A DNA stretch of 64,000 nt. Origin: Bemisia tabaci (Eukaryota; Arthropoda; Insecta; Hemiptera; Aleyrodidae). The notes beneath the pieces were generated by a model, which ran no database searches, was not told where the DNA came from, and was given only the letters and a program-made list of their open reading frames with translations. The DNA lies in the NCBI RefSeq assembly GCF_918797505.1, contig NC_092793.1, positions 83,573,912 to 83,637,911 on the forward strand. Reading direction: 5' to 3'. The number at the start of each line of letters is the position of its first letter. Positions within the stretch are counted from its first letter, which is position 1. Positions 2,400 through 62,444 of this stretch are shown one piece after another. The translations under genes and the position numbers were made by a program.

Positions 2400-4125
2400 T
2401 TATAGCGCTCTTTGGCGCTTTGCGACACCTAATCGCCACAAAGCTCGGTCTTCCCACAGGTTATCAGGGAGTTGACACTCCCTCATCTCACTTAACACCC
2501 CCTGTCGCCAACCTCTCACTGGGCGTTCCCTACGCCTCCTCCCAGGAGGAACCCAATCAAGCATCTTTTTTGGCAGCCTCTCTTCCGTCATCCTATTGAC
2601 ATGACCATACCAAACAAGTTGTTTGGTCATGACGTCGAACACGATGTCATTTTCGACTTCCATTATCTGACGCACTCTATCATTACGGACCCGATCTCTC
2701 CTAGAAATTCCTGCCGACCTTCTCCAGAAATCCATCTCCGTTGCTCTTAGCATATCCTGTGTCCGTTTCTTCAGCTGCCAAACTTCACATCCGTATGTTA
2801 ATATACTTTTTACTACAGCGTTGTATATCCTCCTCTTGTTATCTTTGGAAATCCGCTGATCCCAGAGGATTCCATTTAACATCGCTATAGCCTTCCTTGC
2901 TAAGGTGTTCCTTTCCCTGATAGCTTGATCCGTCCTTCCATCCTGGGTCAACCGCACTCCCAAGTACTTGAAGTGCTCGCAGCATTTGATCTGCTGCCCA
3001 TCCTCCAACTCAATGCTTTGCTGATCACCACCAAAAGTCATCTTCTCAGATTTGGATATGCTGACTTCCAAACCCCACTTCCGATATTCTTCTACTAACT
3101 TGCGCATCATGTACTCCGCGTCTTCTTGATCTTGAGCAACCACCACCTGGTCATCAGCAAAGCACAGAGTGAACAGAGTTTCAAGATCACCCAAGGGGAC
3201 ACCCATACCAGAACACTTCCTTTTCCATTCCTTTAGCACACATTCGAGGTAAATTTTAAATAATGTTGGCGACAAACAACATCCCTGTTTTAAACCCTTA
3301 GTCACATAAAATCCCGCTGACAACCCCCCATGATACTTAATTTTGGTAAAACTCCCTTTATAAAATCGCTTGACAGCATCGATCAACCCCCCGTTAAAAT
3401 TCGATTTTTCCAAGGCCTCCCAAAGTTTCACCAACGGCACACTGTCATACGCTTTCTGGAGATCCACGAAAATTAAATGCAGCTCCTGAGCTACGGCCAT
3501 TTTCTTCTCAATGACCTGGACAATAACAAAGAGGTGATCTATCGTAGACCTGCCAGCTCTAAAACCAGCCTGCTCCTCTGCTTCGTGATCCTGCCATTCG
3601 TCCTCGATCTTCGCTTTCAGTATCTTCCCGTACATTTTGCTTATTGTCCCGGTCACTGAGAGCCCCCGGTAGTTGTTACAGTCGTCCTTCCTTCCCTTCT
3701 TTTTGTAGATGGCCTTGATCCAGGACTCCTTCCACTCCCTTGGTACCTCGTCACCCCTGATGCATTGCTGCATCAGTTTCCTGAGGCACTCAGAGCTTGG
3801 CAGTCCCGTACTTGACCAACTCAACAGGAATCCCGCCAGGACCCGGCGCTTTATCATTAATTAGCTCTTTAACCGCTTTAATTATGTCACAAGTGTGAAT
3901 CTCCAAGTTGTTCATTCTTCCGTTGTCCGTGCTGCTGTCTCGAAACTCTGGGCGCCTTTCCGTCAAAAGATCTTTAAAATGATCCTCCAGTTTTTTAAGT
4001 GATATCGGAGAAACGATGTCGCGCTTCATGTCTCTACGTAAACCTTTAATTAACTTCCAGCTCTCAGCACTTTCTCTCCCCCCTAGGTAGGTGTTAATTC
4101 TAGAACAGTTCTTCCCAAGCTTCAT
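2400..4125 (-). pseudogene. LINE reverse transcriptase (RTE-like), two overlapping frames
   Basis: The reverse transcriptase runs from a short N-terminal frame (3790-4125, containing 'APGPGGIPVELVKYG') into a 485-residue frame (2400-3857). Visible motifs are 'NNYRGLSVTGTISKMYGKIL', 'EQAGFRAGRSTIDHLF', 'LIFVDLQKAYDSVP', 'LKQGCCLSPTLF' and the catalytic 'FADD' in 'TLCFADDQVV'. The C-terminus has 'LTYGCEVWQLK' and 'LVWYGHVNRM', typical of RTE elements. The two frames overlap by about 68 bp around 3790-3857, so one frameshift separates them. No RNase H domain follows. It copies element RNA at the nicked target site. Confidence 0.85.
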
Positions 4126-4305
4126 TCTTCTTCCGTGTTATGAGGCTCCTAACTTTAGACTGAGCTTTCCTGTAAGCAACTTTATCTTCAGCCTTTTTAG
4201 ACGACAGAAATATAAGATGTTTTTGCCTCTTGAGATTTATCTCGTCTTCAATTTCTTCATCCCACCAGTAAGGATGCTGCTTTTTATTACTGGTTTTGCA
4301 AATAC

Positions 4306-4659
4306 CTAGGCTTCTTTAGCTGCAGAGTGGATACAATCTTTAATGAAATGATATTGCTCTTCAGTGGTACCCGAAAGCCCATCCCCCAACTTCTCATCCA
4401 AGCGTTTCCGATACAGAGCCTTGACACTAGGGTGCTGCAAACTTTCGATGTTGTATCTTACCTCACGCTCTTGCATCCCCTGTCCCTGCTGTTGTTCAGG
4501 CACTGGTTCTACATCCTTAGTTCCTTTAACGGGAAACGCTATATCTGCTCGGAGGAAATGATGGTCACTGCCGCAGGAGAGTCCCCTGCACACTCTAACT
4601 TGCTGCAATTTCAGCTTAGTAGAGTGCTTAACAATCACATAATCGATGATGGATTTCAA
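4306..4659 (-). pseudogene. LINE endonuclease C-terminus and linker, frameshifted
   Basis: This is the continuation of the endonuclease in a second frame. It has 'IIDYVIV' at the start and 'CGSDHHFLRADI' about 30 residues later, which carries the conserved Asp-His catalytic pair of EEP nucleases. The rest is a linker towards the reverse transcriptase and includes a Gln-rich patch. The frame ends at a stop near 4306, and the following ~180 bp before 4125 are broken. Confidence 0.7.
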
Positions 4660-5452
4660 TCCTCGCGTTGGCTGGACCCAGGTATATACTTATGGATGTC
4701 TTTGTGTTGAAAAAGCCATTCAAAATTCTCATCTCAGTTTGAGAACAAATTGAGATGAGCCGATCACCGTTATCATTAACAGCATCCTCCCCAAACGGTC
4801 CAACAACTTTACAGTTTACTCGTCGTCCCGTTCTGCTGTTCAAATCACCCATAAGTATGACTTCCCTGCCAGCACCAACGTTCAGAATTTCATCATTCAG
4901 ATCTTCAAAAAATTGGTCCTTACACGCGACAGTGGCATCATCATTTACACCGTACACTCCAAGCAGCGTGATCTTATGTCCGTATAGGTTGAGGTTCATT
5001 CTGATAAGTCGCTGGTTGACGGCCTCCCAGGTGCCCACAAACTTACGTAGGCTTTTCCGCATGAGTATTGCTACTCCTTGCTGAGCACGCTGATCTTTGG
5101 CCACGCCGCTGTAGAATAGATCATAGTCACCGTAATTCTCTGACCCGTGCCCTTTCTTCTTGGTTTCAGTAAGAACAGCGACATCCACTTCAAGCTTCTG
5201 GATCTCCGATATCACTTCCGGTAGCTTATTCGAAATGCCTTGGACATTCCACGTCCCAAATATCAATGTCCGTTTTCTTAATTTTTGTCGACGTGTCCGT
5301 TTGTTTCCAGTGGTACCGAGGCTTGTTACGTTAGGTCTTTTGTCAGTGAAACCTTTTACAAGTACCGGGGAGTCAGCCCGATGACTCAACCCCCAACCTG
5401 GAGGACCAGGGTTTGATTTTGGAGTTGCCTCTCCTAGACAGGTTGCTTTCAC
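4628..5452 (-). pseudogene. LINE endonuclease domain (EEP family), frameshifted
   Basis: This is the N-terminal endonuclease of the RTE-like LINE, which nicks target DNA for target-primed reverse transcription. Family motifs are visible in order: 'FGTWNVQGI' near residue 65, 'LTETKKKGHG' near 95, 'LLGVYGVNDD' near 170, 'LMGDLNSRTG' near 205 and 'NDNGDRLI' near 230. Such frames are often annotated as 'craniofacial development protein 2-like' in insect genomes. The frame is lost near 4690, where the sequence should run into the 'IDYVI' and 'SDHHFL' motifs; those continue in another frame from 4659 down to 4306. I start at the first ATG; the true LINE start could be further upstream. Confidence 0.8.
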
Positions 5453-11052: not shown

Positions 11053-11657
11053 TTCATTATGGAGCCCATTTAGCAGGCTATCAAGACTGAGGCTGCTTTA
11101 AAAATGTAAATGGTGCAAGCAAGAAAGGGGTTGGGCCTCCAGGAGGAACATATTTTTTCAAATTAAAATTTATCACAAGGGTGAAAATTCTCACACATCA
11201 GGCAAATAGGGATTGTCCCCTCCCCCTTATTCAGTGAGAGTACTAAAATTTTTCTGGGACAATTTTGGTCAATTTCACTGTGAAGTGTGAGTGTCAGCAG
11301 CGCCCAACTCCCTCCCCGCAGGCACAAGACCTCTCCAGTTAGATTCCCCGGGTCCAGCTGAAATAGCACAGCTACATTTAATCATTCAATCTAATCTTTC
11401 AAATCTACGTTTAGTTGTACGTTTATGGTAGACTTCAGACTTCGATACTTGTCTGTTACGCATTTGCAAACATTTGTTTTTTTTTGTAACTGTCTTCCAA
11501 ACACCAGCGTCATTGTCCGGTGGATTTTCCATCAGAGTCTACACACTTAGACTCATCACTGACCAATTTCTCCGGAATATCTAGCATAAATGGTAAAAAT
11601 GTAGATTTCGCTTTGCAGATAAAGTAGCTGGGGGCCTAAGAAAAAAATGTTCACTTA

Positions 11658-11806
11658 TGTTGCATCTCTGTAGCAACGTCAATGAGCTCTAAAGAAGTTC
11701 AATTTTCTCTCTGTATTCCGGCTGTTTATCTCATGTAATTAATTGTTCTTTAAATAATATTCTATCTTTATTATAAGTATAATTTATTTTTATTGTTGAC
11801 TCAACA
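11658..11806 (+). repeat. BEL/Pao 5' LTR
   Basis: A 149-bp LTR from TGTTGCATC to CTCAACA. It contains 'TAGCAACGTCAATGAGCT', 'TCTCTGTATTCCGGCTG' and an AT-rich 3' half. The 3' copy (25338-25464) lacks about 30 bp of the middle and differs at a few sites, and the solo copy at 20132-20293 is longer, so the family has length variants. Confidence 0.9.
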
Positions 11807-11809
11807 AAA

Positions 11810-11827
11810 TGGTGACCCCGACGTGAT
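11810..11827 (+). promoter_or_regulatory. Primer binding site for tRNA-Trp
   Basis: Three bases after the LTR lies 'TGGTGACCCCGACGTGAT', complementary over 18 nt to the 3' end of animal tRNA-Trp (ending 'ATCACGTCGGGGTCA' plus CCA). This is where minus-strand cDNA synthesis would start. The tRNA identity is from my knowledge of the tRNA-Trp T arm and acceptor stem. Confidence 0.8.
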
Positions 11828-11900
11828 AAAATATATATAATAAAATACAATTGAAGAAAAGTTATTGACAAGGTTATGTGTAAAAAATTCGTATCATCAT

Positions 11901-12262
11901 ATGAAATTGTTCAGTGCAGTTAGTGTGCGCTTCCACTCAATAATTTCATTGATTATGGGTTGCAAGTTCATGTAGTTAGCGTGCGCTTCCATGACTTGCA
12001 AAAGAGACCTTTTGAGGATTTAAAACCTTTGCAGTTAGCGTGCGCTTCCAAAGGGTTAAATCCTAACCTTAAATTCTATAATCCTTGCAGTTGGCGTGCG
12101 CCTCCAAGGTACAATACTACAGTCCTATTTATTACTGGAGTTAATACCATGCAGTTAGCGTGCGCTTCCATGGTTTAAATCCTGACAGAACATTGTGCTC
12201 CGAAGGGACAGTGGCAATTTATGCCTATTAAATTTGGTAGGTAGCGTTTCGCTCCCCCAAAT
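11901..12262 (+). ncRNA. Array of five (plus one divergent) covarying stem-loops in BEL leader
   Basis: A 17-nt module 'CAGTTAGCGTGCGCTTC' or a close variant occurs at 11917, 11973, 12032, 12088 and 12152 (spacings 56, 59, 56 and 64). Each copy sits between arms complementary to each other but different between copies: 11901-11916 with 11934-11949 (15 of 16 pairs), 11960-11972 with 11990-12001 (12 pairs, one bulge), 12016-12031 with 12049-12063 (14 pairs), 12083-12087 with 12105-12109 (5 pairs), and 12137-12151 with 12169-12182 (13 pairs). Within the module AGC...GCT can pair; copy 4 changes it to GGC...GCC (A-T to G-C) and copy 1 gives a G-U pair. A sixth, looser hairpin (12232-12262) keeps 'TAGCG...CGCT'. 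It lies between the primer site and the gag ATG. Function is unknown; packaging or translation control are guesses. Confidence 0.75.
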
Positions 12263-12451
12263 CATGCAGACTCTACTTGCATAAGAAAAAAAAAAAATGT
12301 AATGGCCACATCGCTTAAACATTGCGGAGGACGCTCCATAAGACAATGTACAAACTTGAATTTCAACTTTCCTGAACAACAGCTGTTTTAGGCTGTGTTG
12401 CCATTCCATCATTTTAATGACATTTTATATGGTTGCAGAAGAAATTAAGCT

Positions 12452-12918
12452 ATGGAAGAAGATGAAGGAAATTTGAGGTTGGCAAGCCTTGATAGCACTA
12501 AGCGACAGCTGGAACTTCAATTACAATGTTTCAAGCATGTTTTGGAGCAAGACTCAATAGATGTAGACGCTTTGAAAACCAGATTTGAATCCTCAAAGGG
12601 AATTCTAACTCAATATCTATGGGTATTTCAAGAATTAACTACAAAAAATCCAGCAGCATACCCGATTGATACTGTTTTAACATTTGAAAAACAATATTAC
12701 GAAATTTTGGCTCAAGCAAACGCCTTTATAAATTCAGTGGATCCTAGATCTAATATGCCAGGTACTAGTTTGGAAAATCAATCTGTCGCAAGTCCATTCC
12801 CGGTAACTGACCAGTATATGATGAAATCATACTTAAAACCACCTAAAATTCCAACTTTTGATGGTAAAAAGAGTGAATGGCCTGCATTCATACCAGTGTT
12901 TAACTCCTTAGTGCATAA
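12452..12918 (+). pseudogene. BEL/Pao gag, part 1
   Basis: Begins at ATG 12452 after a 625-nt leader. The first ~90 residues are helical and charged, and the C-terminal part has 'LPKxxGxxxEWPxF'-like features seen here as 'PKIPTFDGKKSEWPAF' followed by 'VFNSLVHN', the start of the DUF1759-type gag region of BEL elements. The frame is interrupted at 12918 by an 874-bp insertion flanked by ATAA. Gag would form the particle that packages element RNA. Confidence 0.8.
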
Positions 12919-13792
12919 CTAGGGAGCTACGCCCCCTGGCCGCTACGCGGCCCAACCCCCTGAAGGCGCTCCGCGCCACCAATGGGCCGCTTCGCAGCCC
13001 TATTTTTACCCTTCTATCAGTGTTAGTTTTATTTTTCCCCTAAAAAATTACGATATGAGGTATACTTTACTTTCAGAATTAAATAAGTTTTGGTTTTGAT
13101 GGATTAAGAATTGTTTTTTTTAAGTCAAAATGACGCGTTTTGGAATGACTGCTTGATGAAATATTGCAGTAAAACAACGTACCATGTTAATCAGGTAATA
13201 ATTAAGGTAGTCAGGAGTTGGGGATCGAGCCCACACCGTGATCATAGTGAAGGCATCTGACGTCTTAGACGACTCGGCCACCGCTCAAATGAAGATAAGT
13301 GGCGCGAATCTTACGGAGATAAGTGTAGAGCTGATGCGCAGGCTACACAGCTACTGCGCAACCTCCTTAACCACTGCGCATCCTCCCGCGCATAGCGGTA
13401 GCAGCACCGAAGCATTCTGTAAACTCACTCACTTTTATAACGTGATTTTAAAAAAACCTGGGTCCTTTTTCCAAAATCTGATTAAAGCGGGCTCATCTAG
13501 GGCCTATTACCTGTCGATTTACGCAAAAATCATGGAAATCGGCCCGGTAGAACGCTCAAACGGACTGTGACAAAAAGTATAAATTTACATTGTTTAAATG
13601 GGAGAATTTGCAACTTTACCACGTAATATAAAAAAACCTGGGCCATATTTTGAAAATCTGAAAAGAGTTGGCTTATCTAGAGACAATTGCCCGTCGATAG
13701 CCGCAAAAATCATGAAAATCGGCCCGGTAGAACGCTGGAACTAAGCGTTACCAGTTCCGCAAAATTAGGAGGTCTTGGAGCTTATAGTATAG
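12919..13792. mobile_element. Unclassified 874-bp insertion with tRNA-like SINE head
   Basis: The insertion splits gag and is flanked by ATAA at 12915-12918 and 13793-13796; taking it out with one ATAA leaves gag in frame. The left end is GC-rich with short palindromes ('CCGCTACGCGG'). The right half contains two diverged copies of a motif with 'GGGCTCATCTAG' and 'GGCCCGGTAGAACGCT'. The right ~350 bp are also present at about 35510-35860, ending in the same 'GGAGCTTATAGTAT'. The class is uncertain. Confidence 0.6.
13215..13290 (-). repeat. tRNA-Ser-like SINE head (minus strand)
   Basis: On the minus strand, box A 'TGGCCGAGTCG' (13270-13280) fits TRGYNNARNNG, and 'GGCTCGATCCC' (13221-13231) is one base off box B. 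Spacing and the run 'GCGGTGGCCGAGTCG' resemble a tRNA-Ser-like promoter of a SINE. A complete cloverleaf is not evident, so I do not call a tRNA gene. Confidence 0.5.
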
Positions 13793-14006
13793 ATAATACT
13801 GCTTTGTCAAATATCTTGAAGTTTCATTACTTAAAAATATCTTTGTCTGGTAAAGCACTTGATTTAATAAAACATTTGAAATTCGTAGAAAACAATTATG
13901 CAGCAGCATTAAATACACTGAAGGAAAAATATGAAGACAAAAAAGCTTTGTTAAATGTATACATGAAAAGTTTACTAGATTTTGATGATCCATTTCAATG
14001 CAGAAT
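13793..14006 (+). pseudogene. BEL/Pao gag, part 2
   Basis: Gag resumes with a segment typical of the DUF1759 region: 'LSNILKFHYLKISLSGKALD' followed by 'NNYAAALNTLKEKYEDKKAL' (sequence quality, leucine pattern and 'KEKYEDKK' fit the family). It is cut again at 14006, where a long-TIR element has inserted at AT. Confidence 0.8.
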
Positions 14007-14141
14007 GGACCACTAGACAAGGTACGAATTTAAGCGATCTGATACATGTTTCTTAACCAGAATTTCACGTAGAAAACGATTCACACAACGAAAATTGCGG
14101 AAACCAACTCCTAACGAAGATATTAACGTTTTTATTTCACA

Positions 14142-15909
14142 CTAGCAGGAAACCCGTGCTACGCACAGGAAAACCCCACCATCAGCAATCACTGTGATTA
14201 GTGATCAGATACTAATTGTATTTCTGAATTATTATCTACTATTTCAAGATTGGCGAGACGCACTGGTTTGATTAAAAAGTAGAGATTAGTAGTATGCTGC
14301 TATTTTGGTCCGTTCTGCAATAAGCTCACATGATAATTATAATAATAAAAAATACCCAATCAAAAGTTGGTTATTTTCATGAAGATTTGTTACTTTTGTC
14401 AGTTCAATGTTCAATTGAAGTTGGCTGGTGAGTTTCAGCAGCGAAAATTACGGGATTTAGCCAGCGGTTTCGTTTAATTCACAGCAATGGCGGGTGTGTC
14501 ATCTACACCGCGGAGAAAACTTGATTTTTCCAGGGATTTTGGACAACAAATTAGAAATTACACGATAATCACCACGGTATCACGGCAAATACGTCGTGTT
14601 CCTAGCGAATTTTCAAGATCATTACAATTGCGCGTTATTCACATCAATATCGTGGCATACACGCGAATTTCTGACTCAATTAAGACTACGTAAATGTGCG
14701 CATAAAACTCATAAACATCTGTTACTTGAGATGGGCGAAAACGTATGATTTTCCTTCAATTTTGTATGATACCACATAGCTACTCCGGAGTTCAAATAGT
14801 TGCTCGCTTCAATTCTGCTTGTTAAAAGTGACGAATTGGAAGAATCCAATCTAAATTTCACGAGAACTATGGGATGTAACCATCGGTTTCCCTATATAAG
14901 ATTTAATGTTTTGAAATTATAAAAAAAAAAAAAAGAGCATTAGCGATGATTTAAAATTTTGCAAGTAAGACTCATGTGTTTCGGTTCCACGATCGGAGTC
15001 AAATATTGATGAAATGCGCGCGAAACCTCCGCTTCTCCTCCGATTGAAGCGTTGCACACCGTCTTTATGTTCCATTTTTATTTATTTATTTTATTAATGA
15101 AGCCAAGCAACAGCTTCTCTCAAAATTTCCCGAGAATTTGCCTTAATCATTTCAAAACAAGATAAAAGTAACAGAAAGTAACCCCAGGCGTTGTGAAGAC
15201 TACTTAAATCACAACAATTTTTTTTACTTTCGAACTTGAGCAGGTAAATTTTCTCAAAAAATAAAAAAACAAAACGAAACGAAAGGTTCCGCGGAGCACA
15301 TTTTTCACTAATCTTGCAAAAAAAGAAACGGAAGGAAACTCGAACCAATCGCGAAAATTGCGAACCAATGCCGTAGAATGAAGAGACTACGCCAGTCTCT
15401 TTATTCTATGCCGATGCATAGACAGATTTTCCAAATTTTCACATCCCTGAGAGAGTAGCCCGGCAACGGATGCACGAGTCGGAGCTCGCAACAATCATGG
15501 CGCGGCGTTTCCAACAGCGCGACGCCGAACTCGTTCCATCTTCCTCGCACTCGTTGGACGCTTAACCCCTTCCATCTTCCTCGCACCCGTTGCGCGTACC
15601 AGAAGAACACGCGTAAAATTTATCAGCTGTCTTCCAGCGCGAGCGGCGGAACTTGCTCCATCTCGCTCGCACTCTCTCTCGCACCCGTTGTCCTTACGGG
15701 AAAATCGACACACGCGGACCGCGATATCCCGCGAACCGGCGGGCGGATCGCGAAATCCTCCCTTATCCGGCGCCTCGGGGTAGAGAGGGATCCCAGTGCG
15801 GAATCTCAGGGTCACACGGCCTCCCGTTCACGAGATCCGCTGATACGTGAGTGAGTCAGTCAGTCAGTGAGTGAGTCAATCAACGTGAAGTCTGCTTTAT
15901 TAGTATAGA
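14142..15909 (-). mobile_element. Non-autonomous Helitron, array unit 1
   Basis: On the minus strand the unit begins 'TCTATACTAATAAAGC' at 15909 and ends 'GGGTTTCCTGCTAG' at 14142, with a subterminal 7-bp hairpin (CCTGTGC-GTA-GCACGGG). These are the 5'-TC, CTRR-3' and hairpin signatures of Helitrons, inserted between A and T. It is 1768 bp long, lacking about 210 bp found in units 2 and 3 (equivalent to 16770-16980). No Rep-helicase is encoded. Confidence 0.85.
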
Positions 15910-16692
15910 CTAGCAGGAAACCCGTGCTACGCACAGGAAAACCCCACCATCAGCAATCACTGTGATTAGTGATCAGTTACTAATTGTGTTTCTGAATTAT
16001 TATCTACCATTTCAAAATTGGCGAGACGCACTGGTTTGATTAAAAAGTTGATATTAGTAGTATGCTGCTAGTTTGGTCTGTTCTGCAATAAGCTCACATG
16101 ATAATTATAATAATCAAAAATTCTCAATTCATTCTCAAGTTGGTTATTTTCATAAAGATTTGTTACTTTTGTCAGTTCAGTGTTTAATTGAAGTTAGCTG
16201 GTGAGTTTCAGCCGCGAAATAATTACGGGATTTAACCAGCGGTTTCGTTTAATTCACAGCAATGGCGGGTTTGTCATCTACATCGCGGAGAAAACTTGAT
16301 TTTTCCTGGGCTTTTGTAAAACAAATTAGAAATTACACGATAATCACCACGGTATCACGGCAAATACGTCGTGTTCCTAGCGAATTTTTAAGATCATTAC
16401 AATTGCGCGTTATTTACATCAATATCGTGGCATACACGCGAATCTCTGACTCAATCAAGATTACGTAAATGTGCGCATGAAACTCATAAACATCTGTTAC
16501 TTGAGATGGGCGAAAACGTATGATTTTCCTTCAATTTTGTATGATACCACATACCCACTCCGGAGTTCAAATAGTTGCTCGCTTCAATTCTGCTTGTTAA
16601 AAGTGACGAATTGGAAGAATCCAATCTTAATTTCACGAGAACCATATGGGATGTAACCATCGGTTTCCCTATATAAGATTTAATGTTTTGAA

Positions 16693-16732
<40 letters not shown>

Positions 16733-17238
16733 ATTAGCGATGATTTAAAATTTTGCAAGTAAGACTCATGTGTTTTGGTTAAACTATGATAGAAACAGAA
16801 AGCAGGTGAAGAATGTCGAAGCGATGTTCTAGTTTTGCTCCGCTGTCAGCACCGCGTCTGCAGGCGCACTGCGCAGTGTGACCGAGCCGTCATCACAGTA
16901 TAGAACGCCTTCAATCTAGCAAGCGGCAATTTGGACATCTTCCGTGGTGAAATAGTTGTATCAAGAGCGCCCTCCACGATCGGAGTCAAATATTGATGAA
17001 ATGCGCGCGAAACCCCCGCTTCTCCTCCGATTGAAGCGTTGCACACCGTCTTTATGTTCCATTATGATTTATTTATTTTATTTTTGAAGCCAAGCAACAG
17101 CTTCTCTCAAAATTTCCCGAGAATTTGCCTTAATTATTTCAAAACAGAAGATAAAAGTAACAAAAAGTAACCCTAGGCGACGTGAAGCCTAAATCACAAC
17201 AATTTTCTTACTTTCGAACTTGAGCAGGTAAATTTTTT

Positions 17239-17272
<34 letters not shown>

Positions 17273-17914
17273 GAAACGAAAGGTTCCGCGGAGCACATTT
17301 TTCACTAATCTTGCAAAAAAACGGAAGAAAACTCGAACCAATGCGCGAACCAATCGCGAAAATCGCGAACCAATGTCATAGAATGAAGAGACTACGTCAG
17401 TCACTTTATTCTATGCCGATGCATAGACAGATTTTCCAGATTTTCACATCCCTGAGAGAGTAGCCCGGCAACGGATGCACGAGTCGGAGCTCGCAACAAT
17501 CATGGCGCGGCGTTTCCAACAGCGCGACGCCGAACTCGTTCCATCTTCCTCGCACTCGTTGGACGCTTAACCCCTTCCATCTTCCTCGCACCCGTTGCGC
17601 GTACCAGAAGAACACGCGTAAAATTTATCAGCTGTCTTCCAGCGCGAGCGGCGGAACTTGCTCCATCTCGCTCGCACTCTCTCTCGCACCCGTTGTCCTT
17701 ACGGGAAAATCGACACACGCGGACCGCGATATCCCGCGAACCGGCGGGCGGATCGCGAAATCCTCCCTTATCCGGCGCCTCGGGGTAGAGAGGGATCCCA
17801 GTGCGGAATCTCAGGGTCACACGGCCTCCCGTTCACGAGATCCGCTGATACGTGAGTGAGTCAGTCAGTCAGTGAGTGAGTCAATCAACGTGAAGTCTGC
17901 TTTATTAGTATAGA
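15910..17914 (-). mobile_element. Non-autonomous Helitron, array unit 2
   Basis: A 2005-bp unit directly abutting units 1 and 3: on the minus strand its CTAG end is followed at once by the TCTATAC start of unit 1. It is almost identical to unit 3 over most of its length. It contains a long A tract near 16686-16728, another near 17240-17270, and a 'GTGAGTCAGTCAGTCAGTGA' simple repeat near its 5' end. The short open frames it holds are repeated in every copy and have no known domain. Confidence 0.85.
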
Positions 17915-18697
17915 CTAGCAGGAAACCCGTGCTACGCACAGGAAAACCCCACCATCAGCAATCACTGTGATTAGTGATCAGTTACTAATTGTGTTTCTGA
18001 ATTATTATCTACCATTTCAAAATTGGCGAGACGCACTGGTTTGATTAAAAAGTTGATATTAGTAGTATGCTGCTAGTTTGGTCTGTTCTGCAATAAGCTC
18101 ACATGATAATTATAATAATCAAAAATTCTCAATTCATTCTCAAGTTGGTTATTTTCATAAAGATTTGTTACTTTTGTCAGTTCAGTGTTTAATTGAAGTT
18201 AGCTGGTGAGTTTCAGCCGCGAAATAATTACGGGATTTAACCAGCGGTTTCGTTTAATTCACAGCAATGGCGGGTTTGTCATCTACATCGCGGAGAAAAC
18301 TTGATTTTTCCTGGGCTTTTGTAAAACAAATTAGAAATTACACGATAATCACCACGGTATCACGGCAAATACGTCGTGTTCCTAGCGAATTTTTAAGATC
18401 ATTACAATTGCGCGTTATTTACATCAATATCGTGGCATACACGCGAATCTCTGACTCAATCAAGATTACGTAAATGTGCGCATGAAACTCATAAACATCT
18501 GTTACTTGAGATGGGCGAAAACGTATGATTTTCCTTCAATTTTGTATGATACCACATACCCACTCCGGAGTTCAAATAGTTGCTCGCTTCAATTCTGCTT
18601 GTTAAAAGTGACGAATTGGAAGAATCCAATCTTAATTTCACGAGAACCATATGGGATGTAACCATCGGTTTCCCTATATAAGATTTAATGTTTTGAA

Positions 18698-18735
<38 letters not shown>

Positions 18736-19241
18736 ATTAGCGATGATTTAAAATTTTGCAAGTAAGACTCATGTGTTTTGGTTAAACTATGATAGAAACA
18801 GAAAGCAGGTGAAGAATGTCGAAGCGATGTTCTAGTTTTGCTCCGCTGTCAGCACCGCGTCTGCAGGCGCACTGCGCAGTGTGACCGAGCCGTCATCACA
18901 GTATAGAACGCCTTCAATCTAGCAAGCGGCAATTTGGACATCTTCCGTGGTGAAATAGTTGTATCAAGAGCGCCCTCCACGATCGGAGTCAAATATTGAT
19001 GAAATGCGCGCGAAACCCCCGCTTCTCCTCCGATTGAAGCGTTGCACACCGTCTTTATGTTCCATTATGATTTATTTATTTTATTTTTGAAGCCAAGCAA
19101 CAGCTTCTCTCAAAATTTCCCGAGAATTTGCCTTAATTATTTCAAAACAGAAGATAAAAGTAACAAAAAGTAACCCTAGGCGACGTGAAGCCTAAATCAC
19201 AACAATTTTCTTACTTTCGAACTTGAGCAGGTAAATTTTTT

Positions 19242-19275
<34 letters not shown>

Positions 19276-19916
19276 GAAACGAAAGGTTCCGCGGAGCACA
19301 TTTTTCACTAATCTTGCAAAAAAACGGAAGAAAACTCGAACCAATGCGCGAACCAATCGCGAAAATCGCGAACCAATGTCATAGAATGAAGAGACTACGT
19401 CAGTCACTTTATTCTATGCCGATGCATAGACAGATTTTCCAGATTGTCACATCTCTGAGAGAGTAGCCCGGCAACGGATGCACGAGTCGGAGCTCGCAAA
19501 AATCATGGCGCGGCGTTTCCAACAGCGCGACGCCGAACTCGTTCCATCCTCCTCGCACTCGTTGGACGCCGAACTCCTTCCATCTTCCTCGCACCCGTTG
19601 CGCGTACCAGAAGAACGTACGTAAAATTTATCAGCTGTCTTCCAGCGCGAGCCGCGGAAATCGCTCCATCTCGCTCGCACTCTCTCTCGCACCCGTTGTC
19701 CTTACGGGAAAATCGACCCACGCGGACCGCGATATCCCGCGAACCGGCGGGCGGATCGCGAAATCCTCCCTTATCCGGCGCCTCCGGTAGAGAGGGATCC
19801 CAGTGCGGAATCTCAGGGTCACACGGCCTCCCGTTCACGAGATCCGCTGATACGTGAGTCAGTCAGTCAGTCAGTGAGTGAGTCAATCAACGTGAAGTCT
19901 GCTTTATTAGTATAGA
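17915..19916 (-). mobile_element. Non-autonomous Helitron, array unit 3
   Basis: The third unit, 2002 bp, ends at 19916 with the same TC start and is followed by T (A on the minus strand), as expected for Helitron insertion between A and T. It is near identical to unit 2 except in the 5' ~450 bp (19440-19860), which carries more substitutions and small indels. Confidence 0.85.
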
Positions 19917-20131
19917 TTGGTTACGAGGAATTTGAACTGCTCGCTCACAAGAAACTCAAAACTCTACGTGAGTCAAATCGCCCACTACAACGGTTTCAGC
20001 AAGCTTCTCAATCGAGCAATGTTCATTTCCCATCATGTGTTGTTCAAACTATTAGCAATTTGCTCTAACTGAGCCAAAGCGTCAAGATTGAGGTTGCCAG
20101 ATTTTTATATCGCATAGACTGTCATGATAAC

Positions 20132-20293
20132 TGTTGCATCTCTATAGCAACGTCAATGAGATATATAAAGAAGTTCAATTTATCAAATTCACTCTCTCTG
20201 TACTCCGGCTGTTTATCTCATGTAATTAATTGTTTTTTAAATAATATTCTATCTTTATTATAAGTATAATTTCTTTTTATTGTTGACTCAACA
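20132..20293 (+). repeat. Solo LTR of the same BEL/Pao family
   Basis: A 162-bp LTR from TGTTGCATC to CTCAACA inside the larger BEL element, with its own perfect 5-bp duplication ATAAC (20127-20131 and 20294-20298). There is no internal region, so an element inserted into the long-TIR transposon and then recombined to a solo LTR. Confidence 0.9.
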
Positions 20294-20496
20294 ATAACGT
20301 TTAGCGCGCGATGTGAATCACGTAGAGCATTGAGTTTTTATGAGTGGGTGGTTTGAATTCACGCATTAAGAATCATTAAATATCTTCGTAAGGAGTTGAT
20401 TTCGGTAATTTTCGTTGTGTGCATCGTGTTTTACGTACAATTTTGGTTAAGAAACATGTATAAGAATGCTGAAATTCGTACCTTATCTAGTGGTCC

Positions 20497-20853
20497 ATTG
20501 ACTCAAGATTGCGGGCAAAAGACGTTGAAAGAATCAACAATAAAATTACCCAGACATTAGAAGCGTTGGTAATAACGCTGGAAATAGATACGACAACGTG
20601 GGATCCTTTCATCATACATGTGGCAATGTCTCGTTTCGACAGACCAACACTGGCTGAATGGGAAAAAGTGACAGCACCGAAGGAGCTTCCAACTCGTAAG
20701 CAACTACTAGATTTTCTCAAAAAGCGTTCAAGAATTTTAGAAGCGGTCGAAACACATGGTTCAAAGAAATATGAACATACATCAAGCAAGGATAGCAGAG
20801 GCACGTATAAAAGACCAAGTAAAAAAGTACGACAAACGACGTATAAAAGTTGA
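20497..20853 (+). pseudogene. BEL/Pao gag, part 3
   Basis: The gag frame continues with 'ERINNKITQTLEALVITLEI', 'FIIHVAMSRFDRPTLAEWE' and 'PTRKQLLDFLKKRSRILEA', matching the C-terminal DUF1759-type helices of BEL gag. A Lys-rich tail ends at a stop near 20853, where the next frame overlaps by a few bases. Confidence 0.8.
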
Positions 20854-21248
20854 AAAGAAAATCAACGACTTTCAATCTTGTACATGTCAATGACAAAATG
20901 AAAAAGTCAGAAGGAAGAAAATGTCAATACTGTGATGGACAACACAATCTTTACTCTTGCCTACGCTTCAGAAAGCTGACTTATCCAGACAGAATGACCA
21001 TCGTAGAATCAGAAGGTGTATGTGCTTTATGTCTTCGACGCCATCCAGGCAGGTGCTCATCGAGTTACAAATGTGCTGAGTGTCAAAGCACCTCCCACAA
21101 TTCTTTGCTGCATAAACCAGCAAATGGTACAAAACACATCAAGAATCAAGAATCAGCTTCCAAGAATTCTGGACCTTCAAAAACACTGTCAACGTCATCA
21201 GAGTCCAAATCGCAGCATGGTGGACCGGTGTTGTCTGACACCATATGA
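20850..21248 (+). pseudogene. BEL/Pao zinc-knuckle region
   Basis: About 130 residues with Cys/His clusters: 'CQYCDGQHNLYSC', 'VCALCLRRHPGRCSS' and 'KCAECQSTSHNSLLH'. These are the nucleocapsid-like zinc fingers between gag and protease in BEL elements and would bind RNA. A stop at 21248 separates it from the protease frame 10 bp later, so at least one lesion lies between. Confidence 0.8.
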
Positions 21249-21257
21249 CTATCAACG

Positions 21258-22427
21258 GTGCAAGTTCGAGTATTCCATGTCAATGAAGTAGTTGTATGCA
21301 AGGCATTGTTGGACAACGGCGCGCAGTCCTGCTCAATATCAAGCTCGCTTGTGCGTCAACTAAAATTAAAAACCGAACCATTTGAGTGCATGGTATACGG
21401 CATAGGCACAACCTATTCAGAAGAAAAGACCAGTATTATAATTGCACCATTGTGGGGCGAACTGCGATTTAAAATATCATGCGTCATACTGGATTCTCTT
21501 CCAATTGACTTGCCTCCTTACAACAAATTATCAAGATTATCAGAAAAAGTGAAAAATCTGAAACTAGCAGATCCAACCTTTGAGAAAGGCGGTTCAATTG
21601 ACCTCATTCTTGGATCAGCTATATTTTGGAACTCTTTACTCGAAAACCGAATAGCATCCAACTTTACTCATCCTACATTACAAGAAACAATATTCGGATG
21701 GGTAGTGGGAGGCTCATGCAACTCTAATTCTGATCTGTTTGATTATGAGCATATGCAAGAAATGAATCAAATTCATGTAAAATTTGTTAAAGAAGCAGAA
21801 ATTCATAAAAATTTGGAAAACTTTTGGAAATTAGAAGATATGAGAGATTTCGATGAAGCTGAAACTCATGTATGCGAGACACTATTCTCTGAAACCACTT
21901 ACAAAAGTCCTGATAATCATTTTGTTGTCCAATTACCTCTCAAAGAAGATCCTAGTGTTTTAGGCAATTCAAAGAGATTAGCATTAAAACGTTTCTTCCT
22001 GATGGAGAAAAAGTTGCAGAGTAACAAAAAATTGAAGGATATGTACATTGACTTCATGAAAGAATACGAATCCTTGGGTCATATGGCAGAAATACCAACG
22101 GAACATGAAGACGATGAGCCTTCTTACTACATTCCACATCTTGGCGTCTTACGAGAAAATCGGCTTACAACCAAATTACGTGTTGTGTTCGATGCTTCCG
22201 CCAAAACAAGCACAGGGAAGTCTCTAAACGATATTTTACATGTCGGCCCAACGATTCAATCAACGTTATTCAGTATACTAATAAGATTCAGAGAGTATCC
22301 GGTGGTTGTTGCAGCAGACGTGACAAAAATGTACCGAATGGTTTTAATTCACCCTGATCACAGGAATATGCAAAGAATTTTTTGGAGGGAAAATCCAAGT
22401 CAACGAATCAAAACATATGTCTTGAAC
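21258..22427 (+). pseudogene. BEL/Pao protease and first half of reverse transcriptase
   Basis: The frame starts with a retropepsin-like segment: 'CKALLDNGAQSCSISSSLV' around residue 15 is the active-site loop, with DNG in place of the usual DSG, and 'GRALAD'-type second features are not obvious. A linker of about 200 residues follows, then the reverse transcriptase start: 'PHLGVLRENRLTTKLRVVFD', 'LNDILHVGPTIQ' and 'VVVAADVTKMYRMVLIHPD'. The palm is interrupted at 22428 by a 165-bp palindromic hAT element. Confidence 0.82.
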
Positions 22428-22592
22428 CAGTGGCGTGGCGTGAATTGCAATAAATCGATTGTTGTGTCATTTAAACCTATGGTAAAGAATCGATTATTAA
22501 GGTGTTCGCTGCGAACACCTTGTTTATCGATCCTTTTCCAAAGGTTTAAATGGCACAACAATCGATATATCGCAAAGCACGCCACGCCACTG
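22428..22592. mobile_element. Palindromic hAT MITE in the reverse transcriptase
   Basis: A 165-bp, nearly perfect foldback with ends 'CAGTGGCGTGGCGTG' and the complement, flanked by an exact 8-bp duplication TCTTGAAC (22420-22427 and 22593-22600). The arms are about 75 bp and include 'TTTAAACC' and 'ACAACAATCGAT' pairs. No coding capacity. Confidence 0.92.
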
Positions 22593-23400
22593 TCTTGAAC
22601 ACTGTCACATACGGCACTTCCCCAGCACCATTTTTGGCCATCAGATCTCTACGAGAAACATCAAATGGATTTACTGCAACGCTACCCCTTGGAGCTTGCC
22701 ACTTAAAAAAATCATTTTACGTTGATGATTTTTTAGGAAGTGGAAAAGACGAGAAGGAAGCGAAAGCAGTAAAAATAGAGACAGAGACAGTTGCATCCTC
22801 AGGAGGCAATTTTAAACTTCGAAAATGGACGTCAAACGTTCCTGCTATACTTACAGATGAACCTGAGCATGCTGAACCACTTTATATAAACGATAGTGAA
22901 GAAGTGAAAACTCTTGGTATTGAATGGCATCCAGTTCCGGATAAATTTTGGTTCTCTTCAGTGCCCAATTTATCAGCAAAAAATAGCAACACAAAACGCA
23001 CAATTCTGTCAGAATCTTCTAAACTGTTCGATCCGCTAGGATTAGTCAGTCCAATAGTAATACGTGCAAGGTTGATAGTACAAAAAATTTGGCAAGAAAA
23101 ATTAGAATGGGACCAAAATGTTCCAACTTCAATCAGTCAAGAATGGTCTATTGGTCTATGTCTTTTGAAGACATCCAGAATCTAAAAACATGCAAGATCC
23201 CTCGACACTTATTAACGTCTCCAGATAATCAAATCAGAATAATAAAGCGTTTGGAGCATGTATCTATGTTGCAACATTTGAAAGTAACAGTTCAAGAACT
23301 GAAGGAGCATCAAGACTCATTTGTTCAAAATCACGAGTTGCGCCATTAAAACCCCAGTCTTTGCCTCGATTGGAACTATGTGGAACTAAATAGTTGTCTG
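22593..23400 (+). pseudogene. BEL/Pao reverse transcriptase, second half and start of RNase H
   Basis: After the insertion the palm resumes with 'TVTYGTSPAPFLAIRSL' and the catalytic 'SFYVDDFLGSG'. Thumb and connection features follow: 'FKLRKWTSN', 'TLGIEWHPVPDKF' and 'LFDPLGLVSPIVIRARLIVQ'. The frame closes near 23185 and the sequence continues in other frames to about 23400, giving at least two frameshifts. Enzymatically it would copy RNA to DNA in the particle, but it is clearly broken here. Confidence 0.82.
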
Positions 23401-24026
23401 AACTAATGAAAAAAGTTATTGCATCATTAAAGTATAAGCCACACAAAGTATTTCTTTGGTCCGATTCATCAATCGCACTACACTGGATTGCCAACTGTCC
23501 ATCAAAATGGCAACTCTTTGTAGCAAATACAGTGACAGAAATAAAAAAGATAATACGCGAAATACATGCCAATTGGAATCACGTATCGTCAACTGATAAT
23601 CCTGCTGACTTAATTTCTAGAGGAACAACCGCCAAACAATTAATCAATGACTCCTTCTGGTGGGAAGGTCCGAATTTCATCAAATTGAACGAATCTATGT
23701 GGCCAAAACCAGCAGTAAAAATACCAGAAATGAAAAAAGTTACGTTGGTGGTATCCGTGCAAATCACTTTACCGTTTCCTTTATTCGTAAAATTTTCTGA
23801 TTTAGAAAAAATTTTAAGAATTGTCAGCTACTGTTTACGATTCGTTTATAACGTACAAGAAAAAATTAAGAACAACAAAAGTGGAGCAGAAACTACTTGC
23901 AATCTTCGTACCGGACAACTCTCCTCAATTGAACTCCACGAGGCATTGAAATTTTGTGTGAAAGCAGTACAAAATGAATGTTTTCAAGAAGAAAAAAACC
24001 ATTTATTGCATTCTAAAGAAAAATAA
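23394..24026 (+). pseudogene. BEL/Pao RNase H region and connector
   Basis: Contains 'VFLWSDSSIALHWI' with an RNase H-type Asp, then 'STDNPADLISRG', the well-conserved end of the BEL RNase H segment, and 'FWWEGPNFI'. The remainder is the linker towards integrase ('SIELHEALKFCVKAVQ...'). A stop at 24026 precedes the integrase zinc-binding region. Confidence 0.8.
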
Positions 24027-24053
24027 TTTTTCAAATCAAGCACTATTAGAACG

Positions 24054-25311
24054 TTGCACCCGTTCATAGACGAAGAAAATATAATAAGAGTTGGTGGACA
24101 TCTCCAAAAATCGAAACTTTCGTATGAGCAAAAACATCAAATGCTACTACCAAAAAATCACAGGTTTACAGGTCTAGTCTGTAATCTAGAGCATCGAAGA
24201 CTTTTACATGCATCCCCGAAACTACTTTTATCCAGCGTAAGACAGCAGTTTTGGCCAGTTCATGGTCCAGCCTTAGCACAAAAAACAGTGTCAAAATGCA
24301 TTACATGTAAAAGAGCGAATCCAAAAGAATTTTCCCAAATAATTGCACCTTTACCATCCGAAAGAGTAATTTACTCCACCTTTCACTTATGTAGGTCTAG
24401 ATTACACTGGTTCAATATCAGTTAGAACTAGTGACAGACAGAATGCAGCAACAGTAAGAAGTTACATTGGAATCTTCGTCTGCTTCACAACAAAAGCAGT
24501 TCATCTTGAATTAATAAAGGATTTATCAACAAAATCATTCTTGAAAGCACTGCAAAGATTTGTGTACAGAAGAGGAATACCATCTTGCATATTTTCCGAC
24601 AACGCAAAAACATTTGTTGGGGCGAAAAATGAAATGCAGAAAACCTTTGATAACAAGCTTCAAGATCCAGACATTATAAACTACTTGACCAAAAATCGAA
24701 TCGACTGGAAGTTTAGCCCTCCACAATCACCACATCATAATGATCTAGCAGAAGCAGCAGTTCGACAATTTAAACAAATTTTCTTGAAAGTAACCAAAAA
24801 TCACATTTTTGATAAAGAAGAAATTTCAACTTTAATAATTCAAATTGTAGGCATTTTAAATTCTCGACCATTAGTGCCATTGTCTTCATCTCCAGATTAT
24901 TTTGAAGCATTGACGCCCGGCCACTTTTTAATCGGCAGAGCATTAGCAGCTATTCCTATACAAGAAGCTCTTCTTCGAATAGTAAAACACCCTTCTCCAT
25001 TGGCCCACTATTCTGAATCAAAAAAAATGTTTGCAGACTTCTGGGAAAAATGGAGAACCGAATATCTAAATGAATTGCAAGTATTTAGAAAATGGCACTC
25101 TCAAACAAAAGACTTAAAAGTTGGAGAATTAGTTGTGGTCAAAGAAAAATTTCTTTCGCCCCTCTTTTGGAAATTAGCACGCGTAGAAAAATTACACCCA
25201 GGGTCAGATGGTAGAACTAGAGTTGTAACACTGCGAACTTCAAAGAAAACCTTCGTTCGAGCAGTGTCAGAAATTTGTTTATTGCCAGTATTTGAGAATC
25301 ACTCATCTTGA
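24054..25311 (+). pseudogene. BEL/Pao integrase and C-terminal tail
   Basis: The HHCC zinc-binding part is in 24054-24425 (paired His in 'HRRLLH', Cys pair 'CITCKR'). One frameshift near 24385 leads to the catalytic core, open to 25311: the first Asp in 'GLDYTGS', the second in 'IFSDNAKTF', and the Glu in 'HHNDLAEAAVRQF'. A DUF5641-like tail follows ('LKVGELVVVKEKF', 'FWKLARVEKLHPGSDGRTRV'). It would insert cDNA into the chromosome. Catalytic residues remain but the frame is not intact. Confidence 0.85.
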
Positions 25312-25337
25312 AGTGTTTCACTTCAACCGCACCAGAC

Positions 25338-25464
25338 TGTTGCATCTCTATAGCAACGTCAATGAGCTATAAGGAAGTTCAATTTATCAAATTCACCCTC
25401 TCTGTATTCCGGCTGTTTATAATCTTTATTATAAGTATAATTTATTTTTATTGTTGACTCAACA
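25338..25464 (+). repeat. BEL/Pao 3' LTR
   Basis: A 127-bp copy of the LTR, lacking about 30 bp between 'GGCTGTTTAT' and 'AATCTTTATT' compared with the 5' LTR. It ends 'GACTCAACA' and is followed by the ACTTA duplication. The preceding bases are not a clear polypurine tract. Confidence 0.88.
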
Positions 25465-25469
25465 ACTTA

Positions 25470-26408
25470 TATTAACTTCTGTTAGGAGTCAATTGCCTGC
25501 ATTAATTAGGGTTTAAGATCTTTACAAATCGAATATTATTGTAAGATTTCACAAGCAAACGCATCGTACGTTCAGCCTAATTGACTGCTAACCTTAAAAG
25601 AAGCATGTGGACTTTAGGTCTGGCTGTGTTATGAGAGGCTGCGCAACGGAATTAAATGATTCTCTTGAGATAAATTCCTTACCTCTGAACTAGAAAAGCC
25701 ATTAATTCAGCTTTGTTCTGACCCCAACACGAATAAAACAATCCGCCCAACAGGCAGCAAGCGTCAAGAGATATTTATGCATTTATCCTCTCTGTTATTT
25801 GCACTTGGTCAGGAAAATACTGAAATAATGGTTCATACAGCTGAGAGCAATGGAATTTGTTGAATGTTCGATGTCTTTCGCAAATATTGACACATTACGG
25901 CAAGAGGCCGGTGTTACCTCTGATGCATCAACGAAGAGGTATCACAAACAACTCCGAAGTTAAAAGTTACAAGATCAAGCAGCGCTACTACATTTAAATT
26001 TGAGAATACTAGATATTCATAGCAATTAATCAGAAACGTTTGGAGACTTTTATACGTAAATTCCGGTGGAAAACCCACTTCATGAAGACATTAGAACAAT
26101 GAACAAGTGGAGTGAAACAGTTGCAAAAATTGAACAAATACTTACGTTCGCGTAATGGTGAGCTTAGTTTATTGAGGCTAAAATGGAACGACTGAAACGA
26201 TTTAAATTAAATTTATTAGGAATTATTATACTATAATCGATCAGCACACGATGCTTGGGCATGCGACCGAGCGTGAAAGTGGTAATGATAATTTCGTAAA
26301 CAAATATGGCGGCATTCGGTCACAACGTTGAGAGTGCCGAACCCCCGAAAACGCACCGCCGCGGTGGAGATTCGAGGTAAACCGCCGAATTCCAACGGTT
26401 GACCGTCC
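25470..26408. other. Intron sequence right of the BEL element
   Basis: No gene was found. The end (26310-26406) is an inverted copy of 10423-10518 and serves as target of the MITE at 26409. I see no other structure here. Confidence 0.35.
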
Positions 26409-32551: not shown

Positions 32552-34543
32552 TCTATACTAATAAAGCAGACTTCACGTTGATTGACTCACTCACTGACTG
32601 ACTGACTCACTCACGTATCAGCGGATCTCGTGAACGGGAGGCCGTGTGACCCTGAGATTCCGCACTGGGATCCCTCTCTACCGCGAGGCGCCGGATAAGG
32701 GAGGATTTCGCGATCCGCCCGCCGGTTCGCGGGATATCGCGGTCCGCGTGGGTCGATTTTTCCGTAAGGACATCGGGTGCGAGAGAGAGTGCGAGCGAGA
32801 TGGAGCGATTTCCGCGTTTCGCGCTGAAAGACAGCTGATAAATTTTACGTGTGTTCTTCTGGTACGCGCAACGGGTGCGAGGAAGATGGAAGGAGTTAAG
32901 CGTCCAACGAGTGCGAGGAAGATGGAACGAGTTCGGCGTCGCGCTGTTGGAAACGCCGCGCCATGATTGTTGCGAGCTCCGACTCGTGCATCCGTTGCCG
33001 GGCTACTCTCTCAGGGATGTGAAAATCTGGAAAATCTGTCTATGCATCGGCATAGAATAAAGAGACTGACGTAGTCTCTTCATTCTATGACATTGGCTCG
33101 CGATTTTCGCGATTGGTTCGCGCATTCGTTTGAGTTTTCTTCCGTTTTTTGCAAGATTAGTGAAAAATGTGCTCCGCGGAACCTTTCGTTTTGTTTTGCT
33201 TTTTTTTGCTTTTTTTTTTTTTGAAAAAATTTACCTGCTCAAGTTCGAAAGTAAAAAAATTGTTGTGATTTAGTCTTCACGTCGCCTGGGGTTACTTTTT
33301 GTTACTTTTATCTTCTGTTTTGAAATGATTAAGGCAAATTCTCGGGAAATTTTTAGAGAATCTGTTGCTTGGCTTCAAAAATAAAATAAATAAATCATAA
33401 TGGAACATAAAGACGGTGTGCAACGCTTCAATCGGAGGAGAAGCGGGGGTTTCGCGCGCATTTCATCAATATTTGACTCCGATCGTGGAGGGCGCTCTTG
33501 ATACAACTATTTCACCACGGAAGATGTCCAAATTGCCGCTTGCTAGATTGAAGGCGTTCTATACTGTGATGACGGCTCGGTCACACTGCGCAGTGCGCCT
33601 GCAGACGCGGTGCTGACAGCGGAGCAAAACTAGAACATCGCTTCGACATTCTTCACCTGCTTTCTGTTTCTATCATAGTTTAACCAAAACACATGAGTCT
33701 TACTTGCAAAATTTTAAATCATCGCTAATGCTCTTTTCTTTTTTTTTTTTTTTTTTTTTTTTTATTTCAAAACATTAAATCTTATATAGGGAAACCGATG
33801 GTTACATCCCATATGGTTCTCGTGAAATTAAGATTGGATTCTTCCAATTCGTCACTTTTAACAAGCAGAATTGAAGCGAGCAACTATTTGAACTCCGGAG
33901 TGGGTATGTGGTATCATACAAAATTGAAGGAAAATCATACGTTTTCGCCCATCTCAAGTAACAGATGTTTATGAGTTTTATGCGCACATTTACGTAATCT
34001 TAATTGAGTCAGAGATTCGCGTGTATGCCACGATATTGATGTAAATAACGCGCAATTGTAATGATCTTAAAAATTCGCTAGGAACACGACGTATTTGCCG
34101 TGATACCGTGGTGATTATCGTGTAATTTCTAATTTGTTTTACAAAAGCCCAGGAAAAATCAAGTTTTCTCCGCGATGTAGATGACAAACCCGCCATTGCT
34201 GTGAATTAAACGAAACCGCTGGTTAAATCCCGTAATTATTTCGCGGCTGAAACTCACCAGCTAACTTCAATTAAACATTGAACTGACAAAAGTAACAAAT
34301 CTTTATGAAAATAACCAACTTTTGATTGGGAATTTTTGATTATTATAATTATCATGTGAGCTTATTGCAGAACAGACCAAAATAGCAGCATACTACTAAT
34401 ATCAACTTTTTAATCAAACCAGTGCGTCTCGCCAATTTTGAAATAGTAGATAATAATTCAGAAACACAATTAGTAACTGATCACTAATCACAGTGATTGC
34501 TGATGGTGGGGTTTTCCTGTGCGTAGCACGGGTTTCCTGCTAG
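32552..34543 (+). mobile_element. Non-autonomous Helitron, single copy
   Basis: A 1992-bp copy in the opposite orientation to the array at 14142-19916. It starts 'TCTATACTAATAAAGC' between A and T and ends with hairpin 'CCTGTGCGTAGCACGGG' and 'TTTCCTGCTAG' before T. It is closest to array units 2 and 3, including the 210-bp block missing from unit 1. Confidence 0.9.
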
Positions 34544-34559
34544 TCTTTTCTAAATCTTT

Positions 34560-62249: not shown

Positions 62250-62444
62250 TAGTCCCACGGAGATCAAAACGATCACTGCATGGAATCATTAGCCCACGGA
62301 GATCAAATAGATCACTGCATGGAATTTTTAGCCCACAGAGATCAAATCGAACACTGCATGGAATTATTAGCCCACGGAGATCAAATCGATCACTGCATGG
62401 AATTTTTATCCCATGGTGATCAAATCGATCACTGCATGAAATTA
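62250..62444. repeat. 39-bp minisatellite, five units
   Basis: Units with 'CCCACGGAGATCAAAT' and 'GATCACTGCATGGAAT' start at 62254, 62293, 62332, 62371 and 62410 (period exactly 39). Because 39 is a multiple of three, both strands stay open and show repeat peptides such as 'CSDRFDLRGL'; this is a by-product of the period and not evidence for a gene. Confidence 0.9.

Follow-up and report, generated by a model that had tools for sequence, protein, structure and literature searches.

In alphaviruses, the packaging signal in nsP1 consists, according to the passages describing it, of four to six stem-loops that all bear a short conserved motif and select the genomic RNA (PMC8233893). Retroviruses place their packaging signal in the 5' leader, as stem-loops between the primer site and gag that are read by Gag, and the hairpins described there for HIV-1 are unlike one another (PMC12789967). 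Among LTR retrotransposons, the Ty1 5' leader forms an RNA structure favouring Gag binding, which is presented as a pseudoknot, with no repeated hairpins in the passages describing it (PMC8396678). For the Belpaoviridae, the ICTV profile describes replication as poorly understood and does not mention a packaging signal (PMC8742986).

Here, we describe an array of five sister hairpins in the leader of a BEL/Pao element of Bemisia tabaci, located in a stretch of 64,000 nucleotides of contig NC_092793.1 (hereafter the window, to which all coordinates refer). The window holds several hairpins with a common tip on stems of differing sequence, which is the mark of a repeated-hairpin packaging signal. 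The array resembles the alphavirus signal in that several stem-loops share a short motif, but the latter lies within a coding region of an unrelated virus, has a GGG motif and was tested for packaging, which we infer here. With the retroviral signal it shares the position between primer site and gag, and with Ty1 a structured LTR-retrotransposon leader; unlike the HIV-1 hairpins, however, the sister hairpins of the window repeat one module. Coronavirus SL5 carries a repeated loop motif near the 5' end of the genomic RNA and likewise places related loops on differing stems, but it is a single branched element of unrelated viruses. The gypsy leader, another LTR-retrotransposon leader with a repeated motif, contains the Su(Hw) insulator, but its sites are bound as DNA and have no pairing arms. 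Searches of open-access literature, which leaves out most subscription papers, turned up no BEL/Pao element with such an array.

The element extends from 11658 to 25464 on the forward strand. LTRs and the short target duplication ACTTA (11653-11657 and 25465-25469) bound it as required for BEL/Pao, and it codes for the Pao-type domains DUF1759 (gag), Peptidase_A17 and DUF5641 (both pol), so that the BEL/Pao identity assigned in an earlier sequence-only reading holds. Among the 120 of 882 homologues listed, those with a name come mostly from insects, and the best identity is 45%. The 5' LTR of 149 nt (11658-11806) and the shorter 3' LTR (25338-25464) align with 113 matches, 3 substitutions and 46 gap columns; at 149 nt, and at 160-163 nt in the derivatives L022 and L023 described below, the LTRs are slightly under the range of 0.2-1.2 kb given for Belpaoviridae (PMC8742986). 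The same source describes a primer site of 18 nt, complementary to tRNA-Arg or tRNA-Gly, and a polypurine tract of about 10 nt upstream of the 3' LTR (PMC8742986). In the window, a putative primer-binding site, TGGTGACCCCGACGTGA, adjoins the LTR at 11810-11826; by eye, no polypurine run was found before the 3' LTR, where CTTCAACCGCACCAGAC precedes position 25338. Two inserts interrupt the element. The start of gag with DUF1759 (12452-14003) is split by an 875-bp insert (12919-13793), which is absent from L019 and L021-L023, and the remaining gag and pol lie at 20500-25337. The second insert (about 14004-20499), also in gag, has inverted ends of 121 bp, 88% alike. It contains repeats of about 2-3 kb, which recur inverted at 32552-34553, and a solo LTR belonging to the BEL family of the element (20132-20293, target duplication ATAAC). 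As proposed from the sequence, the array lies in the leader, between the putative primer site and the gag ATG at 12452. Two of the upstream ATGs in the leader fall within the array, and TATATGGTTGCAG at 12425-12454, directly upstream of the gag ATG, looks by eye like a 3' splice site. Elsewhere in the window, both on the minus strand, we observed LINE-type frames (2400-5452; reverse transcriptase of 485 aa and endonuclease/exonuclease domain of 274 aa) and frames of a Copia-type element (44848-48373; best relative 49% identical).

The five copies of a 17-nt module that had been proposed were found on the forward strand at spacings of 56, 59, 56 and 64 nt. Hairpin 1 spans 11901-11949 (core 11917-11933), hairpin 2 11960-12001 (core 11973-11989) and hairpin 3 12015-12064 (core 12032-12048), all three backed by arm permutation, folding alone and contiguous-pair frequency. 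Hairpin 4 (12083-12109, core 12088-12104) has a short stem and is energetically weak, and hairpin 5 (12137-12183, core 12152-12168) is backed by arm permutation and contiguous-pair frequency and is improbable in context. Folded alone, copies 2-5 form an arm, a 5x2 internal loop, a 3-bp stem and a 4-nt loop, with the sequence arm-CAGUU-AGC or GGC-GUGC-GCU or GCC-UC-arm (UAGUU in copy 2). The inner stem of copy 1 deviates because of a private change: the G-C to G-U difference at 11924, which had been taken as a pairing change, is a mutation of this copy, since all eight aligned relatives covering the site have C, and it is therefore ruled out as covariation. The replacement of the closing A-U pair of the inner stem by G-C in copy 4 is real (GGC/GCC) and common to other genomic copies, too. 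That the arms share no sequence between copies does not apply to copies 3 and 5, which are duplicates (86% over 49 columns), their loop-proximal stems now being CCUUUG/CAAAGG and ACCAUG/CAUGGU. A protein-coding repeat is ruled out, as the coordinates place the five cores in all three frames. Further downstream, also on the forward strand, we noted a candidate degenerate sixth copy (12231-12263; 9.1 bits, whereas the reverse strand reaches 11.1 bits at best) and an extra hairpin, ACATTG/CAATGT, which is not clearly a module (12319-12349; folding p 0.016, 9.1 bits).

Taken together, the copies pair best with their own arms: the own arrangement ranked first among the 120 permutations at arm lengths of 16, 20 and 24 nt, and when the arms were set to 10 nt, its energy was reached by 346 of 20000 random permutations. 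The 17-nt cores are flanked by 4, 5, 6, 5 and 6 contiguous arm pairs in copies 1-5, counts that are reached with frequencies of 0.023, 0.011, 0.005, 0.011 and 0.005, respectively, at 20000 random positions in 11650-26000, and slid registers give just 0-3 contiguous pairs. The arm permutations and pair frequencies rule out a chance origin of the array. When the five modules were treated as an alignment and compared with 500 shuffles, the covariation score was 0.536 versus 0.245 (0/500) and 87.3% versus 74.4% of cells were paired (0/500), with 6 versus 3.0 two-sided pair changes (8/500) and 11 versus 8.1 further pair types (29/500). The claim of pairing-conserved stems around a fixed core is borne out by the first rank among permutations and by the covariation score, and we consider it very probable that the hairpin array is a selected structure. 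By duplex energy, copy 4 is unremarkable (P 0.25 at random positions; p 0.04-0.12 in the arm test), and p values for folding alone are 0.016, 0.008, 0.006, 0.27 and 0.09 for copies 1-5. Taken as a whole, the leader shows no exceptional stability (z -0.78), with 3 of 20 shuffles equalling or surpassing it. In three full leaders, pairing of hairpins 1 and 2 is mostly probable, that of hairpin 3 becomes probable in two of the three only when the span is limited to 100, and that of hairpins 4 and 5 is mostly improbable. A comparison of 11600-12700 with Rfam gave no match at E values up to 1.

A search of the host genome (609,955,014 bases in 151 contigs) returned 14 leader matches, a number that counts the window as well as split copies. 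Besides the window, four copies extend across the leader (L005; L006; L008 with L012; L009 with L011), each of the four with five model matches, and the rest are truncated or rearranged. Substitutions affect 16 of 308 columns in hairpins versus 40 of 312 in linkers (p=0.001; 11 of 215 and p 0.004 for hairpins 1-5 alone), where the p values are a guide only, since the window and the eight aligned rows, which come from six elements, share ancestry and include dead copies. No indels occur in hairpins 1-5 among the aligned family rows. When the copies were searched for stems that are not complementary, most hairpins in those spanning the leader proved complementary, the exceptions being copy 4 of L005, in which one contiguous arm pair is left, and the decayed L010, L013 and L016. 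Copy 4 of L009 has an inner-stem change without compensation, and by eye no two-sided changes were seen among family copies. The family copies thus show conservation, and it is the sister hairpins that covary with one another.

The module hardly occurs outside the window family: of at least 31 exact matches to GTTRGYGTGCGCYTCC in 610 Mb, 30 are in leaders of this family, and with up to one mismatch there are at least 54 places versus at least 34 for the reversed pattern. Within the window, two weak matches to the module model (18.9 and 17.7 bits) occur in a tandem-repeat stretch at 62275-62403 (minus strand). In IMG/VR, three exact 16-mer matches were found, one occurrence each without a second module and with weak model scores (19.5-21.9 bits); in one of them (L001:7137-7164, minus strand, viral contig; 19.5 bits) the flanks happen to pair (CGCACC/GGTGCG). 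None of seven two-core pattern matches in IMG/VR was hit by the model at E values up to 0.1, BEL relatives were found there neither by protein nor by alignment, and prokaryote contigs gave no two-module match.

Two deletion derivatives, L022 and L023 (reverse strand), lie on different contigs and lack the same 4.5 kb or so of gag-pol with an identical junction. They have their own target duplications (TCTAC and GGCTC, respectively) and LTR pairs that hardly differ (158 of 160; 161 with 2 gap columns), and without leader insert this non-autonomous derivative measures about 2 kb. Both kept the leader, in which each later gained a different insert. Because the derivatives inserted without a pol of their own and kept the leader, the retained stretch probably holds cis signals. 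The array is not singled out by this, since a 316-codon gag frame was kept as well.

At least 148 places in the genome code for integrase/DUF5641 (367 candidates, of which 148 were scored), and twelve other BEL elements were examined (L063-L074; L075, the element of C1:372905, extends L073). A primer site like that of the window was found in five of the twelve, namely L063, L064, L067, L074 and L075, with integrase identities of 48%, 49%, 45%, 47% and 49%, respectively. In L065 (52% integrase identity) as well as in L066 and L068-L072 (36-42%), no primer site of the window type was found, and as the stretches were placed by guess, this does not show absence; some short repeats with three occurrences were seen in the stretches of L066, L068, L069 and L072.

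Hairpin arrays follow the primer site in four of the five, i.e. L063, L064, L067 and L075. L067 has eight aligned modules AUG-CAGU-GAGC-UUUU-GCUC-UC-C (including a poor copy at 1177 and excluding a divergent one near 1207), with arms such as GAGAUG/CGUCUC, AAGUAAUG/CGUUACUU and GACAUG/CGUGUC, an inner stem AGGC/GCCU in one copy and a single contiguous arm pair in one module. Its own arm energy was reached by 47 of 20000 permutations, the covariation score was 0.310 versus 0.140 (2/500) and 86.9 versus 80.0% of cells were paired (5/500); further pair types were not above shuffles (122/500). One arm pair is U-G in five of seven distinct rows, and such pairs exist in the sense strand only, which argues for RNA. 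In L075, we identified by eye four modules AUG-CAGUGAGCG...CGCCUCC, in which the arms pair well once, with a single mismatch once and poorly twice. In L063, the pattern was matched sixteen times, with GGC-UUUU-GCU or GC-UUUU-GC at the centre. Nine of the matches are tandem 54-bp units; with one unit representing these nine, 111 of 20000 permutations reached the own energy. L064 has four modules around UAUUGAUAUUUAAUCUUG with the arms CGG/CCG, UUGG/CCAA and CAG/CUG, and 834 of 20000 permutations reached the own energy, the minimum possible with four modules being about 833. The leader of L074 (743-1523) shows no variable-arm array, only a pyrimidine-rich 23-bp tandem repeat around GCCCCTAGTTGGC. 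Judged from these sequences, the copies retain their individual pairing in the window, in L067, in L063 and, with four copies only, in L064. Since TGCAGU, AGC and UCC are common to the window, L067 and L075, the module is probably older than the split of these elements, and the tips of L063 and L064 differ from it.

We propose, with a probability of about one half, that the leader array is a multivalent RNA recognition signal read by Gag for packaging. The leader RNA of the window family would carry five hairpins, each with an identical tip (CAGUU internal loop, AGC-GUGC-GCU, UC) and a stem that may take any sequence provided that the arms pair, and related families would carry arrays of like layout, some with the same module and some with their own tip. 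The hairpins would form in the RNA and offer a protein several copies of one docking site. This protein would most likely be the Gag/nucleocapsid that the element itself encodes, and several Gag molecules loading jointly would select the full-length RNA into particles. Gag is the likeliest reader because packaging signals of LTR retroelements sit at this position, tips differ among families in one host and the mobilised derivatives keep the leader. Own-arm pairing, covariation, the position from primer site to gag, low hairpin variation, the near restriction of the module to one family and arrays in four of five related elements with an identified primer site speak for such a signal; the low probability of hairpins 4 and 5, the lack of global stability, the weak copy 4, the want of two-sided changes among family copies, the uncompensated changes in L005 and L009 and the absence of an array in L074 count against it.

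The structural evidence fits equally well if the array is a target of a host RNA-binding protein or influences translation, by internal entry, shunting past upstream ATGs or a switch between translation and packaging. The long structured leader and its upstream ATGs, two within the array, would suit such a role, but the variation of tips among families in one host fits an element-encoded reader better, and we regard a host reader or translational role as rather unlikely. Less probable still are loop-loop contacts promoting RNA dimerisation or leader folding: dimerisation signals lie in this region in other retroelements according to the passages on them (PMC8396678) and the GUGC tip can self-pair if wobble pairs are allowed, whereas the UUUU tips of L063 and L067 are unable to do so. 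The duplicate copies 3 and 5 and the nine tandem units of L063 would suit an origin by tandem duplication. Template switching by reverse transcriptase can generate complementary arms, and the two processes could make and renew inverted repeats without any function; however, a fixed core with variable arms, pairing locked in one register, hairpins that change less than linkers and the recurrence of like-layout arrays in several families make this neutral origin quite improbable. Finally, DNA sites for a host protein, as in the gypsy leader, would explain a fixed core repeated in a single orientation in an untranslated leader, but they would need no copy-by-copy arm pairing and the U-G pairs of L067 are A-C on the other strand, which leaves very little room for them.

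Returning to the reading by Gag, we tentatively suggest that hairpin arrays might act in a clade of BEL/Pao elements as RNA address labels, with a tip specific to a family or family group that is read by its own Gag, which would keep BEL RNAs in one genome apart. The layout shared by these labels would comprise a variable pairing arm, an asymmetric internal loop, a short inner stem and the tip. Recurring among several families, the row of sister hairpins is a candidate means of RNA selection in BEL/Pao elements that can be tested directly, and its naturally occurring series of compensatory changes could be used to study how Gag recognises RNA.
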